Source of the DNA: a virus
Strand: one strand, 5' to 3'
Length of the DNA stretch: 34,522 nucleotides
Virus record (IMG/VR): IMGVR_UViG_3300025164_001513
Coordinates: 1-34,522 of that record
Below are positions 2,769 to 33,449 of the stretch, piece after piece. The translations under genes and the position numbers were made by a program. The notes under the pieces were generated by a model. It did no database searches. It saw nothing but the letters and a program-made list of their open reading frames with translations, and was not told where the DNA came from. The number at the start of each line of letters is the position of its first letter. The stretch's first letter is position 1.

Positions 2769-4799
2769 ATGCAAGACGAATTAAATAATGATGAAAATCA
2801 AGGTCCGGTAAATCCGAATGAAACATCAACTCGAAAAAAAGACAAGTCAAAAACTCCTATGTTGGATAATTTTGGCAAGGATTTGACCAAAATGGCATTA
2901 GAAGGAAAACTTGAGCCTGTAATCGGAAGAGAAAAAGAAATCGACCGGGTGATTCAGATTTTGAGTAGGAAAAAGAAGAATAACCCCGTCCTTATTGGGT
3001 TTCCCGGTGTTGGAAAAACTTGTATTGCTGAAGGTTTGGCAATGAAAATAGCTCACAAAAATGTTAGTAGGATTTTGCATGGAAAGAGAATTATTTCTCT
3101 TGATCTTTCTTTGATTGTTGCAGGTACTAAATATCGCGGACAATTTGAAGAAAGAATGAAAACTCTCATTGAAGAAATTGAACAAAATGAAGATGTAATT
3201 GTCTTTATGGATGAATTACATACAATCATTGGAGCGGGTAATGCTGCCGGAAGTTTAGATGCTTCTAATATGATTAAGCCAGCTCTTGCTAGAGGACAAA
3301 TGCAACTCATAGGTGCCACAACAATAGACGAGTATAAAAAATCTATAGAAAAAGATGGTGCTATGGAACGTCGTTTTCAAAAAGTTATGGTTGATGAACC
3401 ATCAGTAGACCAAACAAAAGAAATTATCAATCAATCTAAAGGGATGTATGAAGAATTCCATGGAGTTGTATTTGAAAATGCTGCTATTAATGCGGTTGTT
3501 GATTTGGCTGATAGATATATTACTGGACGATATTTTCCAGATAAGGCATTTGATGTGCTGGATGAAGCTGGTTCAAGAATACATATTGACAATTTAAATA
3601 CTCCTCCAGAAATTATTCAAATTGAACTTGAAATCGAGGAAACAAAAACACAAAAAGATATTTTTGTTAAAACTCAACAATACGAACAAGCTGCAAAAAT
3701 TAGAGATAAAGAAAAAGAATTAAGCAGAAATCTTGAGTTAAGGAAAGCGGAATGGGAAAAAACTGAAAAAAACAATCGTATTCCAGTTACAGAAGCTGAT
3801 GTAGCTAAAGTTATTTCAAAAATGATTGGAGTACCAGTAACAAAATTAACTGAAGATGAAGGAGTAAAGCTTATTAATATGCCGGAAGAACTTAAAAAAC
3901 GTGTTGTTGGTCAAGATAATGCGGTTGTTAAAGTAGCAGAGGCTATTCAGCGAAACAGAGCTGGACTTAATAATCCAAATAAACCAATTGCATCATTTAT
4001 ATTTTTAGGCTCCACCGGTGTAGGTAAAACGGAATTAGCAAAAGCTTTAGCTCAATATCTTTTTAATGATGAAGATGCTATGATTAAAATTGATATGAGT
4101 GAATATACAGAGCCTCATAATATAAGTAGATTGACTGGAAGTCCTCCAGGATATGTGGATAGCTCCGAAGGTGGTCAGCTCACAGAGAAGGTTCGCAACA
4201 AACCATATTCAGTTATTTTGTTTGATGAAATCGAAAAAGCTCATCCACTTGTACATAATATTTTCCTTCAAATACTTGATGAGGGTAAACTTACAAGTGG
4301 ACTCGGAATAACTGTGAACTTTAAAAATACTATAATTATTATGACTTCCAATGTTGGAACTAAAGAAATGTCTGAATATAAATCTGTTGGATTTGGTCTT
4401 GGAGAACGTAAGAGTGTTGATATTGAAGAAATTGTTAAAAAAGCTCTTAAGGGAAAATTTAAACCAGAATTTTTAAATCGCCTCGATGAGCAAGTTATTT
4501 TTAATCTTTTAACAAAAGAAAACATAAATGAAATAACCGGTATTCATATTAATAATTTTTCAAAATTAGTAGAGAAACAAGGTTATAAACTTGAAGTTAG
4601 TAAATCTATGAGAGAAATCATTGCAAAAGACGGTTTTAGTGAAGAATTTGGCGCAAGGCCAATTTTGAGGATGATAACAAAATATATACAGACACCGATT
4701 TCTAAGGATTTACTTTTAAAAAAATTCACAGCAGGCGACACAATATATGTTGACTGGGACAAAAAAAAAGAAGAAGTAAAAGTTACTTCTAAAAAGTAA
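2769..4799 (+). CDS. Clp-family AAA+ unfoldase (ClpC/ClpA-like), no N-domain
   Basis: This is a class I Clp ATPase with two AAA+ modules, 676 residues. It would unfold proteins and thread them into a ClpP chamber. Module 1 has Walker A GFPGVGKT (77-84), Walker B VIVFMDE (143-149) and an arginine finger region RRF (201-203). A short coiled/UVR-like insert with KTQQYEQAAKIRDKEKEL (301-318) resembles ClpC rather than ClpB, and the long ClpB middle domain is absent. Module 2 has GSTGVGKT (414-421), VILFDE (482-487) and sensor-2 GAR (628-630). VGF at 540-542 lies where ClpA/ClpC carry the IGF/LGF loop that docks on ClpP. The N-terminal Clp repeat domain that normally binds substrates and adaptors is missing; only about 40 low-complexity charged residues precede module 1. 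ClpP follows about 1.1 kb downstream. A strong terminator lies just after the stop. Confidence 0.93.
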   Translation: MQDELNNDENQGPVNPNETSTRKKDKSKTPMLDNFGKDLTKMALEGKLEPVIGREKEIDRVIQILSRKKKNNPVLIGFPGVGKTCIAEGLAMKIAHKNVSRILHGKRIISLDLSLIVAGTKYRGQFEERMKTLIEEIEQNEDVIVFMDELHTIIGAGNAAGSLDASNMIKPALARGQMQLIGATTIDEYKKSIEKDGAMERRFQKVMVDEPSVDQTKEIINQSKGMYEEFHGVVFENAAINAVVDLADRYITGRYFPDKAFDVLDEAGSRIHIDNLNTPPEIIQIELEIEETKTQKDIFVKTQQYEQAAKIRDKEKELSRNLELRKAEWEKTEKNNRIPVTEADVAKVISKMIGVPVTKLTEDEGVKLINMPEELKKRVVGQDNAVVKVAEAIQRNRAGLNNPNKPIASFIFLGSTGVGKTELAKALAQYLFNDEDAMIKIDMSEYTEPHNISRLTGSPPGYVDSSEGGQLTEKVRNKPYSVILFDEIEKAHPLVHNIFLQILDEGKLTSGLGITVNFKNTIIIMTSNVGTKEMSEYKSVGFGLGERKSVDIEEIVKKALKGKFKPEFLNRLDEQVIFNLLTKENINEITGIHINNFSKLVEKQGYKLEVSKSMREIIAKDGFSEEFGARPILRMITKYIQTPISKDLLLKKFTAGDTIYVDWDKKKEEVKVTSKK

Positions 4800-11097: not shown

Positions 11098-11497
11098 TTT
11101 ACATATTTATCTCGATGATTTCCGGCATCCATATGACGCTTTTAATATTTTAAAAGATACTGACTATCTTAAATTGAAATGGGTTGTAGTTCGCTCTCAT
11201 GATGAATTTGTTAAAACTATAACAAATTTTTTTTCAGAAGGAAAATGGCCAGCAATTATATCTTTTGATCATGATCTCGATGATGAACACTATACTATCG
11301 GAGAAAAGACTGGGTATAAAGAATTTGACTACTCCTTAACAACTATTCCTACAGGATTTCATTCAGCTCAGTGGATAATAGAATTTTGTAAAACAAACAA
11401 TCTTAATCTCCCGGCATTTAAAGTGCATTCTCAAAGTACTGCAGGAAGAAAAAATATCACTGCTATTTTAGAAGAATTTTCCAATTCTAAAAAATAA
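11090..11497 (+). CDS. Cyclic-phosphate-processing-type receiver domain protein
   Basis: The 135-residue protein shows the pattern LDDFRHP (7-13), VVVRS (33-37), IISFDHDLDDE (near 56-66), TGFHSAQWIIEFC and VHSQSTAGRKNI near the C-terminus. This matches my memory of the receiver-like family proposed to process cyclic phosphate ends in RNA repair or conflict systems, found in many phages and bacteria. The family assignment is from motif recall. The RNA end-processing role is a published inference for the family and is not shown by this sequence. No RNA ligase is visible in the window. Confidence 0.6.
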   Translation: MDSLHIYLDDFRHPYDAFNILKDTDYLKLKWVVVRSHDEFVKTITNFFSEGKWPAIISFDHDLDDEHYTIGEKTGYKEFDYSLTTIPTGFHSAQWIIEFCKTNNLNLPAFKVHSQSTAGRKNITAILEEFSNSKK

Positions 11498-15295: not shown

Positions 15296-16450
15296 ATGTC
15301 AAAAAAATTAACAACAGAAGAGTTTATTGAAAGAGCTAAAATTATACATGTAAACAGAATAACTAATGAATCAAAATATGATTACAGTTTAGTTGAATAT
15401 AAAAATAGCAAAACTAAGATTAAAATAATTTGTAAAGAACATGGTGTTTTTGAGCAAACGCCAAATGATCATTTATCTGGTTGTGGATGTGTTGAATGTT
15501 CTGGACTCAAAAAATTAACAACCGAAGAATTTATTGAAAAGTCTAACAAAGTTCATAGTAATATATATGATTATTCATTAGTAGAATATTTTAACAATAA
15601 TACAAAAGTTAAAATAATATGTAATAATCATGGAGTTTTTGAACAAATTCCAGCAAGTCATTTGGGTGGGCATGGATGTGGTAAGTGTGGCGGAACCGCA
15701 TTAAGAAACACGATAGAGTTTATTGAAAAATCTATAATTATTTATGGATATACATATAATTATGAGTTAGTTGAATATGTTAATTCTATAATTAAAGTTA
15801 AGATAATTTGTAAGAAACATGGTGTTTTTGAGCAATCACCAGATAAACATTTAGCTGGACACCAATGTCCTTTTTGCGGATTTGAAGAAAGTTCCTTAAA
15901 AAGAGCTAATACTTCTGAATATTTTATTGAAAAATCGAAAATTATACACATAAATGAAAAAACATGTGAACCAAAATACGATTATTCAAAAGTTAACTAC
16001 GTTCAAAACAAAACTAAGGTAATAGTAATTTGTCCATTACATGGAGATTTTCAAATAACTCCAAGCTCACATTTGAATGGATATGGATGTAAAAAATGTA
16101 ATTTTTCAAAAATATCAAAGGGAGAAAAAGGTATAATTGAATTTTTAAAAAAGAATAACATCGAATTTATACATCAACATAAATTTAATGATTGCATAGG
16201 AATATCAAATAAATTACCATTTGATTTTTATTTACCAAAATACAATACTTGTATAGAATTTGATGGGAGACAGCATTTTGAATCAGTCAAAAAATTTGGA
16301 GGAGAAAAAAATTTTTTGGATATACAAAGAACTGATAACATAAAAAATAAATATTGTTTAAATAACAATATAAAACTTATTAGAATTTCATATTTAAATT
16401 TGAAAAATATAAATGAAATTTTAGAGAAAGAATTCAACTGTATTGAGTAA
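15296..16450 (+). CDS. DUF723-repeat endonuclease (Vsr/EDxHD-like), copy A
   Basis: Four zinc-binding repeats of about 60 residues (about 10-70, 79-132, 141-195, 210-269). They follow the pattern F-I-E/x-K-S-x-x-H..YDYS-x-V-x-Y...K-V-x-I-I-C-x-x-HG-x-F-x-Q-x-P-x-x-HL-x-G-x-x-C-x-x-C. A C-terminal nuclease-like domain (about 275-384) carries PFDFYLPKYNT (308-318), IEFDGRQHF (320-328) and a later RTDNIKNKYC. The D310/E321/QH327 set fits the very-short-patch-repair-like (EDxHD) nuclease fold used by some phage homing endonucleases. 384 residues, immediately after an RHH gene, and inserted between two minus-strand operons. Confidence 0.82.
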   Translation: MSKKLTTEEFIERAKIIHVNRITNESKYDYSLVEYKNSKTKIKIICKEHGVFEQTPNDHLSGCGCVECSGLKKLTTEEFIEKSNKVHSNIYDYSLVEYFNNNTKVKIICNNHGVFEQIPASHLGGHGCGKCGGTALRNTIEFIEKSIIIYGYTYNYELVEYVNSIIKVKIICKKHGVFEQSPDKHLAGHQCPFCGFEESSLKRANTSEYFIEKSKIIHINEKTCEPKYDYSKVNYVQNKTKVIVICPLHGDFQITPSSHLNGYGCKKCNFSKISKGEKGIIEFLKKNNIEFIHQHKFNDCIGISNKLPFDFYLPKYNTCIEFDGRQHFESVKKFGGEKNFLDIQRTDNIKNKYCLNNNIKLIRISYLNLKNINEILEKEFNCIE

Positions 16451-21124: not shown

Positions 21125-23182
21125 ATGGTAATGAAACAACATTCATTTTTGGTAGATATCGGCAAAACTATGGTCGATACAAATAAAATAAGCTCAGAAG
21201 GAAAAGACAGTCAAAGAATGTACTGCCATTGCGGTAATAAAAAAGAGCTAAAAAGTAAAGCGAGAAGATTGCTTGTAAAAAAACACGACACTACTGTTGA
21301 AGACAAGCATAGTATTGAAACAATTAAATGTGATAAGTGCGGAAGCGTTTATGACAGTAAAAATCGTTTATTTCTTATTATTCCAGATGAAGATGAAATT
21401 TATAAAGTTTCATTTTTAGTAGAAGAAAAAGGAAAAACAATAACTCTTTTAAGACAAAAAACATTTGTTAGATACGATTCTTCTACTGATAAATTAAATG
21501 ATAATATTGTCAGAACCGATTCAATTAAATTTGATAGAAGCAAAAACAAAACTGAAATTTTCTTAGAAAAGCCATTACTTGATAAAATATCAGTAAATAA
21601 TAAGCAGAATGATGTGAATAACATTACGGAAGAAGTAGGTCTTTCAAAAATAGGAAGATTAGAACATTTTTTCCAATTTTATGATTTTGCTTCTTATGGT
21701 GGTCTTATAAATATATTCAATTTTTTTAACAAAATTGATGTTGTAGTAACTGACCTTGACGATATTAAGAAATTGATTCCTCAAATAAGTTATGCTTATA
21801 ATAATCATGATGTTTTTGAAAAAACAGATGAAATAACCGGAGAGTCAATAACTTATAATAAAGTTGATAGCGGTTTTGGAGACGGAAAAAAAGAAGAGAA
21901 AAAATTAAATATAGGTGGGTATTTATCCAGATATGTTGAATTGTCTAAAATTTTTCTTTGTGTATCTGACTTCCAGAGTATTTCAACAATATTACTTACT
22001 AAAGGACAAGTGTTTTTTAAAGAATTTATCCACAGTAAAAACATTTTATCTTCTCAAGTTTATGAATTGTTTGAAGCAACATCTCCTACTAAAATATTGG
22101 AAATTTCTATGAATTGCGATATTAACGGTATGTTAAAAGGAAGTGGAGATAATGATACTAAGGAAGTTGCTAAAAAAGTCGTTAAAATATCAAAAACCAT
22201 AGAAGATAGTCCTAACTATTTAAAGGTTAGTCCTTTGATTTATAAACACATAAGCACTCCACAGGATATGGAAATTTTGCTTAGTATATATCGTAAAAAA
22301 TATATTTCCAAAACTGATATTGAAACTTTGTTTCAAAGTTATGATACTGAGCGTATTTATAAATTCTACAGAAATTTAGAAAAACAAAGAATTCAAGATA
22401 ATGCCAGTTTTACAATCAAAAACATTAAACACATCTTAGATAGAAATATAGATGATGTTGTAAAAGGTGGCAATTCTGATTATTTGCATTTGTATACAGA
22501 TACTATTAACTCAATGAGGCTGTTGGAGCTTTCTGATAATTATATTTATCGTATTAAAAGTAATGTCGAGTTAAAAACTATACATGATGACCTTGCAGCG
22601 AGATATGGAGCTATTAAAGATGCTAAAAAAGCAGAATTTTATAAAAAAGCAGCTAAGGAATTGTCAAACATAAATACAATTGTTGGCGATGTTGAATTGA
22701 CAGTTATTCCAACTCTTGAGGACTTAAATAAAGAAGGTATGCTTATGAATCATTGTATTTATACATACCTTGATCGAATTGTTAATAGAGATTATATGGC
22801 TGTCCATGTACAACATATAATTTCAAATGAAAGAGCAACTTTGGGTTTATATCGTAAAAATGGAGGCCTTGAATTTGATCAGTTAAAAGGTTATCGTAAC
22901 TCAAGAGCCTCAAGAGAGTTAATTGAAGGAGTACTGGAGTTTATACAAATTAACAAAATACAATCTTCTTCCAGAAACAGTGATTTAACACCTTCTGCCG
23001 GAAGCATAACCAGAATGCATGATTATTTAAGTGACGAAGAAGTCATGAAAATAAGAAAAGAAAGAGAAAAAAAGGAAAATATTGAGATGGAAAAAGCAAA
23101 ATCAGAAGGAAAAGAGTATGTTCCTAAGTATTCAAAGTCACATCAAAAAAATAAAAAAGGATTTTTTGGATTATTTGCTTAA
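21125..23182 (+). CDS. PcfJ-like protein with N-terminal zinc ribbon
   Basis: 685 residues. The N-terminus has a zinc-ribbon pattern (C34-H-C36 and C69-DK-C72). The C-terminal part carries the PcfJ-family core: LEDLNKEGMLMNHC (531-544), RATLGLYR (570-577) and QLKGYRNSRAS (586-596). PcfJ-like proteins were named from conjugative plasmids and are common in phages and plasmids; their biochemical role is not established. A long middle region (about 150-520) is helical and unassigned, and the tail is highly basic/charged (MEKAKSEGKEYVPKYSKSH). It has the best promoter in the window, and so is probably well expressed. ATG at 21131 is an alternative start. Confidence 0.78.
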   Translation: MVMKQHSFLVDIGKTMVDTNKISSEGKDSQRMYCHCGNKKELKSKARRLLVKKHDTTVEDKHSIETIKCDKCGSVYDSKNRLFLIIPDEDEIYKVSFLVEEKGKTITLLRQKTFVRYDSSTDKLNDNIVRTDSIKFDRSKNKTEIFLEKPLLDKISVNNKQNDVNNITEEVGLSKIGRLEHFFQFYDFASYGGLINIFNFFNKIDVVVTDLDDIKKLIPQISYAYNNHDVFEKTDEITGESITYNKVDSGFGDGKKEEKKLNIGGYLSRYVELSKIFLCVSDFQSISTILLTKGQVFFKEFIHSKNILSSQVYELFEATSPTKILEISMNCDINGMLKGSGDNDTKEVAKKVVKISKTIEDSPNYLKVSPLIYKHISTPQDMEILLSIYRKKYISKTDIETLFQSYDTERIYKFYRNLEKQRIQDNASFTIKNIKHILDRNIDDVVKGGNSDYLHLYTDTINSMRLLELSDNYIYRIKSNVELKTIHDDLAARYGAIKDAKKAEFYKKAAKELSNINTIVGDVELTVIPTLEDLNKEGMLMNHCIYTYLDRIVNRDYMAVHVQHIISNERATLGLYRKNGGLEFDQLKGYRNSRASRELIEGVLEFIQINKIQSSSRNSDLTPSAGSITRMHDYLSDEEVMKIRKEREKKENIEMEKAKSEGKEYVPKYSKSHQKNKKGFFGLFA

Positions 23183-27069: not shown

Positions 27070-27516
27070 ATGTCAAATGCTATTTTGAAAGAAAAGCAAG
27101 AAAAAGTTAAGGATACACCATGGACAAACCTTGGGATAAAGGTGGACTTGTGTTCATTTTTGACGAGAAAAGTGTTGTTTGAGAAATACATTTCTCAAAA
27201 AGCCAAGGAAACAGAAATGAAAGAATTTTTTATTTCGAAAATTGATGGGTGTGAATTATATACAAACTCAGAGTACAAAGATTACATATTTTACATTAAA
27301 AATATCAATGGAAATAATGAGATTTTAATGGAAAAATATGAAAAAAACAAGACGTTTTATATAAAATATACCAACTTTTGGTCAGTTTTTGAGAGCTTGT
27401 ACCTACTTGAATACTCTGAGATTCAATCATTTACACAGATTACCCTTGAAGATGGTCTAAAATCTAACGGTTATAAAACTTCCATTGTTGCCGAAGAGTT
27501 TGGTTACCAGCCTTGA
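27070..27516 (+). CDS. Hypothetical protein whose 3' end runs into the CRISPR-like array
   Basis: 148 residues, no family recognised. The body (residues 1-125) looks like a normal small alpha/beta protein. The last 23 residues are encoded by the first array repeat (LEDGLKSNGYK), spacer 1 and the first bases of repeat 2, whose CCTTGA supplies the TGA stop. The gene follows the MazG-like gene by two bases. It may be a gene truncated by array formation, or a native gene whose tail provided the first repeat. Confidence 0.6.
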   Translation: MSNAILKEKQEKVKDTPWTNLGIKVDLCSFLTRKVLFEKYISQKAKETEMKEFFISKIDGCELYTNSEYKDYIFYIKNINGNNEILMEKYEKNKTFYIKYTNFWSVFESLYLLEYSEIQSFTQITLEDGLKSNGYKTSIVAEEFGYQP

Positions 27517-27679
27517 AGATGGTCTAAAATCTAACGGTTATAAAACAATACCAGGGAAATATACCACTGCCAACTTCCTTGAAGATGGTCTAAAATCTAA
27601 CGGTTATAAAACATGGAGCAATGGCGAAACAAACCAAATTATACCTTGAAGATGGTCTAAAATCTAACGGTTATAAAAC
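27444..27679. CRISPR. Four-repeat CRISPR-like mini-array
   Basis: Four identical 36-base repeats, CCTTGAAGATGG...GGTTATAAAAC, lie at 27444-27479, 27511-27546, 27577-27612 and 27644-27679. They are separated by three unrelated spacers of 31, 30 and 31 bases (27480-27510, 27547-27576, 27613-27643). Unit lengths of 66-67 bases are not multiples of three, so this is not a protein-coding tandem repeat. Repeat perfection, constant 36-base length and unique 30-31-base spacers fit a CRISPR. Spacer GC (14/31, 12/30, 11/31) is above the surrounding AT-rich DNA. On the minus strand the repeat would read GTTTTATAACCG...CATCTTCAAGG. Orientation, type and leader are not determined; AT-rich DNA follows on the right side. 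No cas gene is in the window. Confidence 0.88.
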
Positions 27680-30857: not shown

Positions 30858-31001
30858 ATGGCTACGAAAACTAAAACATTCACATTACCAGAAGAAATTT
30901 TGGAAAAACTTGCTTCATATAGCGAGGAAAGCTTAATTCCTCAATCGGCATTAATTGCAAAGTTATTAAAAGAATTTTTTGAAAAAGAAAATAAAAAATG
31001 A
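30858..31001 (+). CDS. Ribbon-helix-helix protein, 47 aa
   Basis: Translated directly: starts MATKTKTFTLPEEILEKLAS, then a second helix with QSALIAKLLKEFFEK. The strand (KTFTLP) followed by two helices is CopG-like. Its TGA overlaps the ATG of the nuclease gene (ATGA), so they are coupled. Only fold and placement match the RHH gene at 15136, not detailed sequence. Confidence 0.75.
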   Translation: MATKTKTFTLPEEILEKLASYSEESLIPQSALIAKLLKEFFEKENKK

Positions 31002-32125
31002 GTGGGAAAGCTATAAGTATTGAAAAATTTATTTTTAATGCAAAACAAATTCATGGAGAAAGGTACGATTATTCAAAATTTGAATATGTTAATTCCTCAG
31101 TAAAATCCACAATTATATGTGAGAAACATGGCGAATTTTTACAATCTCCAAGAAATCACATGAAAGGATATAATTGTAAGAAATGTATGTACGAAGGAGA
31201 AAGAACATTACCAAGTAAACATACTTTAGAATCATTTATTATTAAATCAAATGAAGTTCATGATAATAAATACGATTATTCAAAAGTGGTATATAAAAAT
31301 AATAAACAACCAATTATTATAATTTGTCCAGAGCATGGAGAATTTAATCAAAGACCTGATAGTCATTTAAGTGGAAGGGGTTGTATTTATTGTTCAGGAA
31401 CGTATCAATATGCAAAAGAAGATTTTATAAAAAAATCTAATGAAAAACATAATAATAAATACGATTATTCTGAAGTTTTATACACAAAAAATGATAATAA
31501 AGTAACAATAATTTGTAATAAACATGGAAAGTTCAGTCAATTAGCCAAAGACCATTTAAGAGGACGCGGATGTGACATATGTAGTGGTGGATATGTTGGA
31601 ACTAAAGAAATATTTTTGGCAAAATCTTTTGAAGTTCATGGAAATACTTATAATTATGATAATGTAAAATATGTAAATAACCAAACAAAAGTAGATATAA
31701 TTTGTAATAAACATGGTATTTTCAAACAAAGGCCAGCAATGCATTTATTTGGAAATGGTTGTCCAAAGTGTTCAAATTTTTCAAAAGGAGAAATTAAAAT
31801 TACTAAAATTTTAGAAGAAAAAAATATAATATTTACATATCAAAAAACTTTTGATGATTGTAAAAATGTTTTTAAATTACCTTTCGATTTTTATTTACCA
31901 GATTATAATACTTGTGTAGAATTTGATGGAGCTCAACATTTTAAAGCTTTTAAATACTTTGGTGGTGAAAAAACATTTAAAGCAAGGCAACTAAACGACC
32001 AAATAAAAAACGAATACTGCAAAAACAATAACATTCCATTATTAAGAATTCCTTACTGGGACTTTAAGAACATTGAGACTATATTGACTGATTATTTAAA
32101 GTCAATCCTTATCAACTCTAATTAA
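30998..32125 (+). CDS. DUF723-repeat endonuclease (Vsr/EDxHD-like), copy B
   Basis: 375 residues, same architecture as the nuclease gene at 15296. Four zinc-binding repeats (about 10-64, 77-133, 142-196, 205-259) with KYDYS, IICxKHGxF and GxGCxxCSG, then a nuclease domain with PFDFYLPDYNT (295-305) and VEFDGAQHF (307-315). Preceded by an overlapping RHH gene. Its 3' end overlaps a convergent unknown gene by 24 bases. Probable mobile homing endonuclease of the same family as copy A, with considerable divergence outside motifs. Confidence 0.82.
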   Translation: MSGKAISIEKFIFNAKQIHGERYDYSKFEYVNSSVKSTIICEKHGEFLQSPRNHMKGYNCKKCMYEGERTLPSKHTLESFIIKSNEVHDNKYDYSKVVYKNNKQPIIIICPEHGEFNQRPDSHLSGRGCIYCSGTYQYAKEDFIKKSNEKHNNKYDYSEVLYTKNDNKVTIICNKHGKFSQLAKDHLRGRGCDICSGGYVGTKEIFLAKSFEVHGNTYNYDNVKYVNNQTKVDIICNKHGIFKQRPAMHLFGNGCPKCSNFSKGEIKITKILEEKNIIFTYQKTFDDCKNVFKLPFDFYLPDYNTCVEFDGAQHFKAFKYFGGEKTFKARQLNDQIKNEYCKNNNIPLLRIPYWDFKNIETILTDYLKSILINSN

Positions 32126-32377
32126 ATTAAAAGAATCCCATAATGACGGTAATCCTACTCTATCATTTGTAGTAAACCATAATATTGTTACTTCGTTCCA
32201 TTCTTTATCACAGGAAAATACAGTCCCTAAACTTTCTTTAAATTCACGCCAATAATAATAAGGCTCTATAATTTTAGTATTTATTCTAACGGTATCACCT
32301 TTTTTAAAATAATAACTTTTTTCTATAAGTACTATACGTTTTAGTACTGAAATTTCATCGTGATTAATTTTTTTCAT
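32102..32377 (-). CDS. Hypothetical protein, 91 aa
   Basis: A beta-rich protein (KGDTVRINTKIIEPYYYW; VTILWFTTNDRVGLPSLW) that may be an SH3-like or KOW-like barrel. Not recognised. Its last 24 bases overlap the nuclease copy B in the opposite sense. Confidence 0.6.
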   Translation of the reverse strand: MKKINHDEISVLKRIVLIEKSYYFKKGDTVRINTKIIEPYYYWREFKESLGTVFSCDKEWNEVTILWFTTNDRVGLPSLWDSFNLIRVDKD

Positions 32378-33245: not shown

Positions 33246-33449
33246 TTAATAATCGCCTATCCATCCACAACAAGAGCAAGATTCAACGATAAAACTCATT
33301 TTTACATTACATTGGCCTCTACACTCTTCTGGATGTTCACCGTTTTTCCAAGTATTTTTTACTTCTTCTAATTTTGAATAATGAAAAGGATTATCACGCT
33401 TTTCAATTAACACCACTCTTGTTCTAATATCAAAACCACCGTCTTCCAT
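33246..33449 (-). CDS. Hypothetical Cys-rich protein, 67 aa
   Basis: C-terminal half has C43, C47 and a CSCCGW cluster near the end, suggestive of a zinc site. Not recognised. Confidence 0.55.
   Translation of the reverse strand: MEDGGFDIRTRVVLIEKRDNPFHYSKLEEVKNTWKNGEHPEECRGQCNVKMSFIVESCSCCGWIGDY

Follow-up and report, generated by a model that had tools for sequence, protein, structure and literature searches.

Phage CRISPR-like arrays whose repeat is the 3' end of a phage gene

The viruses SPV1 and SPV2 of Sulfolobales carry mini-CRISPR arrays, which lie between genes, have repeats and leaders copied from those of the host and contain spacers matching related viruses (PMC6858448). According to the excerpted text of PMC7162821, the compact CRISPR arrays of huge phages are recognised either by host-like repeats or by an effector encoded nearby. 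Flavobacterium type VI-B arrays gain spacers in trans via the Cas1 of another system (PMC8092290), and two Flavobacterium repeats of 36 nt are documented (PMC5395568), which from their form we take to be type VI-B. Furthermore, there are solitary phage repeat units without cas genes, the RNA anti-CRISPRs, which mimic host repeats and are known to soak up host Cas proteins (PMC10651486).

The locus described here lies in a stretch of phage DNA of 34,522 nucleotides (IMG/VR: IMGVR_UViG_3300025164_001513), hereafter called the window. It holds a 36-nt repeat, CCTTGAAGATGGTCTAAAATCTAACGGTTATAAAAC, in four perfect copies on the + strand, starting at 27444, 27511, 27577 and 27644 and separated by three unique spacers of 31, 30 and 31 nt, just as a first-pass annotation of the window had described. 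Identical direct repeats with evenly sized unique spacers are thus present as in a CRISPR array, and shuffled windows gave 0 matches to the repeat with three or fewer mismatches. The features of the locus are the following.

27070..27516, + strand: array-bearing gene P0001, an ORF of 148 amino acids with homologs in the contigs G3, G4, G6 and G8-G12
27310..27443, + strand: candidate leader, formed by the 3' part of the gene, where synonymous differences are fewer
27444..27479, + strand: repeat 1, the 3' coding end of the gene, with in-frame homology to the C-termini of array-bearing and array-less family members
27480..27510, + strand: spacer 1, 31 nt, gene-proximal
27511..27546, + strand: repeat 2
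27547..27576, + strand: spacer 2, 30 nt
27577..27612, + strand: repeat 3
27613..27643, + strand: spacer 3, 31 nt
27644..27679, + strand: repeat 4, distal end

Two further contigs, 3300025319_000008 and 3300025289_000028, carry the same array with the same spacers and, at 100% identity across the window, belong to the same phage; the two longer contigs of this phage with the array have 106 and 74 kb. No promoter or terminator signal above chance was detected at the array of the window, and an exact-sequence search of the literature did not find its repeat. A phrase search for arrays at gene ends found nothing in the literature either.

Like the arrays of SPV1 and SPV2, the arrays studied here are short, viral and without cas genes, and related viruses differ in their spacers at the same place. 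Unlike them, the repeat is the end of a viral gene and varies from gene to gene, and a spacer target was not found. With the compact arrays of huge phages they share the large phages, the few repeats each, the absence of spacer-acquisition genes and, for some, of interference genes; a repeat drawn from a phage gene is not described in the excerpted text of that report (PMC7162821). RNA anti-CRISPRs are likewise phage repeats without cas genes, but here there are multi-copy arrays with unique, changing spacers. By their gene origin and their many repeat sequences the arrays stand apart from viral mini-arrays and RNA anti-CRISPRs.

Repeat 1 lies inside the ORF and is read in frame as LEDGLKSNGYK(T). 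The conserved domain of P0001 stops at residue 137, within this repeat, and spacer 1 together with the first bases of repeat 2 codes for the remaining tail of 11 amino acids. Judged from frame and homology, the repeat of the window is the 3' end of the upstream phage gene 27070-27516 and belongs to that gene. The first-pass annotation, whose reading as a genuine cas-less phage CRISPR-like array stands, had missed this link with a phage gene family. Comparison of P0001 with its copy in G3 gave a dN of 0.157 and a dS of 0.489, and by its substitutions the protein is under purifying selection. In the same comparison, synonymous differences are found in 3 of 57 codons of the 3' part, repeat 1 included, and in 17 of 80 codons upstream (Fisher p 0.013), and in a second comparison they likewise thin out toward the array (p 0.023); both p-values are optimistic, as the cut at codon 80 was picked after viewing the profile. 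A lower synonymous change near the repeat in the wider family was not used, since the search pattern had fixed those bases.

Differences between nearest-neighbour first repeats from the family fall at third codon positions in 33 of 59 cases (p 3e-4), and 22 of 48 codon changes are synonymous against 23% expected (p 4e-4), the pairs being not fully independent. By this pattern, the first repeats evolve under codon constraint. Several distal copies have a stop codon where the coding repeat reads on (VEETLK*, VEQHLR*, LEDGLKSND*), and we read these copies as an older gene end.

The first-pass annotation had supposed that the repeat might be that of a host CRISPR type, in which case the locus would be a host-derived viral mini-array with a copied repeat and an incidental overlap with the gene. 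The anatomy of the array and the absence of cas genes fit this explanation, and some repeats of relatives do resemble the 36-nt repeats of Flavobacterium: the G10 repeat agrees with a documented one at 21 of 35 positions (0 of 20,000 shuffles as good) and the G3C repeat at 19 of 35 (p 8e-4). Nevertheless we consider it unlikely, because one and the same gene family shows the overlap again and again, in one frame, with divergent repeats and with codon-type evolution. Moreover, the window repeat is only weakly similar to the Flavobacterium repeat (15 of 35, p 0.047, with the reverse complement scoring higher), and its 27-base core has no exact match in 84,980 species genomes, which leaves a copied host repeat unsupported as far as tested. 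The two Flavobacterium repeats form hairpins of -10.9 and -12.2 kcal/mol, whereas most phage repeats, including that of the window, fold indistinguishably from shuffles, the exceptions being G4a (-7.9) and G8b (-5.9).

The hairpin also bears on the resemblance to Flavobacterium type VI-B (Cas13b) arrays (PMC8092290, PMC5395568). The layout of a 36-nt repeat with 30-nt spacers is the same, some relatives have partly similar repeats, and acquisition by the Cas1 of another system is what we propose for the phage arrays as well. On the other hand, the stable hairpin of type VI-B is missing from most tested phage repeats, Cas13b was not found and the window repeat is not clearly similar. Because of the weak similarity of the window repeat and the missing hairpins the arrays were not filed as type VI-B, and the partial resemblance stays.

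Relatives of the locus were collected through the protein and through the repeat. A protein search with P0001 led to G3, a contig of 212 kb from the same sample as the 106-kb contig, whose protein is 80% identical to P0001 and is followed by an array with a different repeat and other spacers. By megablast the window phage and G3 share only about 400 bp of DNA, located at the array-bearing gene. All of the contigs listed above for homologs of P0001 carry arrays of their own behind the gene; G4 has two such genes with arrays, and G3 has a cluster of several paralogs, some followed by an array built from their final 36 nt, others eroded. Searching with a profile of the C-terminal domain (..IWSVFE..F.LNY.EIQ..I...LE...KL.G.TP) brought up contigs of unrelated phages in which gene and array are arranged alike, and the domain is present in 33 IMG/VR contigs besides the window. 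A scan with a single repeat pattern matched 25 contigs, one of them of 296 kb, and the gene stands in frame at every one of the 26 loci listed; through the pattern the last residues of the gene are given in advance, the upstream domain is not.

Together, the group of the window and the scan gave 41 different spacer-containing arrays, whose first repeats have 26 different sequences. Each of the 41 arrays consists of the last 36 nt of its own gene and unique spacers of 27-33 nt, and there are also array-less or eroded family members. In cultured phage records we found no homologs of the protein, the repeats or the spacers; a weak match to phage ZCEC5 was judged to be chance. Bacterial genomes yielded no relatives by peptide pattern, a search whose reach is limited to sequences fitting the chosen motifs. 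The alignments A4 and A5, which held artificial consensus rows, were used only for picking search motifs. All sequences are metagenomic and most contigs may be incomplete. One locus stands out by a fusion: in L128, the gene that ends at 11250 (reverse complement) joins the array-bearing domain to an ORF of 495 amino acids, the middle of which resembles superoxide dismutase by eye.

In the first set of 53 spacers, 35 are 30 nt long, and the enlarged set contains 91 distinct spacers of 27-33 nt, mostly 30 nt. The window spacers 1, 2 and 3 have a GC content of 45, 40 and 35% compared with 28.6% for the whole window, which bears out the earlier description of GC-rich, foreign-looking spacers; in the first set (n=53) it is 39.1%, where pieces drawn at random from their contigs have 30.4% and 0 of 2000 draws were as high. 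The earlier proposal to look for spacer targets yielded none: neither in the cultured-phage collection (most of the 53 first-set spacers), nor in 1.5 Mb of collected contig DNA, overlapping loci counted, beyond homologous arrays, nor in an exact IMG/VR scan with one spacer. With no target found, the spacers may or may not be directed at other phages.

Could the spacers instead encode alternative C-terminal tails of the protein, with the repeats as recombination sites of a diversity cassette? Repeat 1 is coding, and in several G3 arrays a period of 66 nt holds one frame open across several repeats. Such a cassette is very unlikely, however, as spacer lengths of 29, 31 and 32 nt shift the reading frame and turnover at the gene end over fixed distal spacers is unlike cassette shuffling. 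Frame-keeping spacers were also rejected on counts of stop codons: the gene frame of spacer 1 contains them as often as the following frame (14, 14 and 18 of 41 by frame, against 20.7 in shuffles).

The turnover is best seen in pairs of relatives. L113 and L115 are identical over 600 of 600 bp both upstream and downstream and have identical spacers 2-5, but spacer 1 is different; L135 carries the spacer 1 of L113. In the pairs L114/L133 and L117/L119 the distal spacer alone is in common. In G3 only the distal repeat is of the window's type, in degenerate form; the other three, nearer the gene, follow the gene of G3 itself. Among arrays with at least three copies, 13 of 17 have their single most divergent repeat in last place (6.75 expected, p 0.002). 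In the relatives, then, spacers are gained at one end, that of the leader in CRISPR arrays, and the opposite repeat is degenerate; as the four repeats of the window array are identical, this pattern is known from the relatives and not from this array. As judged by these comparisons the arrays grow at the gene end, as in gene-end acquisition. Unchanged spacers across related phages, which had been named as a sign of some other repeat element, were not seen: the spacers of three phage lineages are all different, with turnover at one end. For L113 and L071 (1510), the upstream 600 bp are identical and the array and downstream DNA quite different, so recombination at the end of the gene also exchanges arrays.

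In agreement with the first-pass annotation, no cas genes were recognised among the scanned proteins of the window, and the longer contigs of its phage lack Cas1. Cas1 is also absent from 21 contigs, most of which may be incomplete, in a search that was positive in 9 of 14 control genomes. No Cas family was recognised in ten large proteins from G3 and G12. We found no effector family shared among the array-bearing contigs, most of which may be incomplete; PADLOC scans covered all larger ORFs with the best 25 families listed, so a weak effector could be hidden. HNH_4 was seen only in G9. TnpB-like proteins are clear in two contigs only, and the TnpB in G001 was rejected as effector since it is not common to the array-bearing contigs; it lies at 190-2551 beside an ISL3 transposase at the contig end. 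The combination of cas1 and an effector gene, as in phage-encoded CRISPR-Cas, was thus not seen in these possibly incomplete contigs.

These searches also concern a self-contained system without Cas proteins, in which the array-bearing protein, or some other protein of the phage, would act as integrase or effector. In blastp from G3 against four other large array-bearing contigs, the array-bearing family was the only one matching all four, and the structure model of P0001 (pLDDT 76, moderate) has no known fold or counterpart. Yet the protein has only about 105-137 amino acids and no nuclease family was recognised in it, and we regard such a system as highly improbable, bearing in mind that contigs may be incomplete and that the model is moderate.

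Gene-end repeats, uniform spacers, growth at the gene end and recurrence in many unrelated phages are seen when the sequences are compared, and they are probably explained by a CRISPR-like array borne by a gene: leader and repeat would be phage coding sequence, and an integrase of Cas1-Cas2 type would extend the array. New spacers would go in at the final ~36 bases of a small phage gene, which double as the repeat, with the 3' part of the gene as leader. The integrase would put ~30-bp fragments of other DNA just 3' of the gene, and each insertion would copy the end of the gene as a new repeat. We infer the use of Cas1-Cas2 from anatomy and turnover; the integrase is most likely that of the host, because none was found in the phages. 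The array would be transcribed with the mRNA of the gene, and the repeat-spacer units may serve as guides, probably via host Cas proteins, against competing elements or host transcripts. A single host CRISPR type would hardly be expected to recognise so many different repeats, several of them in one phage, which counts against this reading. So does the failure to find spacer targets, Cas1 or a shared effector, in contigs most of which may be incomplete.

If the repeats themselves were the active part, the arrays would be decoys that soak up host Cas proteins in the manner of RNA anti-CRISPRs, with the spacers as filler, and the partial similarity of some repeats to those of Flavobacterium would suit this. 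A decoy has no need of unique, GC-rich spacers of uniform length with turnover at one end, and arrays reach 5-6 copies; we therefore find it quite unlikely.

Beyond the gene-borne array, a wider proposal seems to us quite possible, without our leaning towards it: the coding 3' end of the gene family may have become both leader and repeat of an array that is adaptive and heritable. Each gene with its array would then be a small memory element, independent of a particular CRISPR type, which moves among unrelated phages and gains spacers via the host's or another integrase. If this is true, CRISPR-like repeats arose anew from protein-coding sequence and CRISPR-type arrays can be born from an ordinary gene, which bears on the origin of repeats and leaders, and many phages, some very large, own an updatable sequence memory without cas genes. 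The array-bearing gene family is a simple search handle for such loci, and the near-identical pair L113/L115 makes spacer gain testable in natural phage populations.

Besides the arrays, some other genes of these phages were noted. Dozens of small proteins of two phages, otherwise unlike one another, share the motif R[K/T/V..]V[L/I][V/I/F/T]EK, with 7 ORFs in the window (e.g. 27070-27516, 32102-32377 and 33246-33449), 21 in G001 and 40 in G003; its reversed form has 0 hits, and the motif itself 0 in G6, G8 and G12. It looks like a shared signal. The window also encodes two related proteins with repeated DUF4379 treble-clef domains (15296-16450 and 30998-32125), a PcfJ-like protein (21125-23182) and an ORF at 1303-2661 with an endonuclease-like N-terminal and a dUTPase-like C-terminal part by eye, possibly an intein or fusion. 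For the Clp ATPase at 2769-4799, the top-ranked match in the phage collection is an unannotated record of 642 kb, with one of 635 kb close behind, so the window may belong to a very large phage. Finally, a protein of the phage contig G003 matches Thiol_cytolysin (Pfam: PF01289, E 3e-35).
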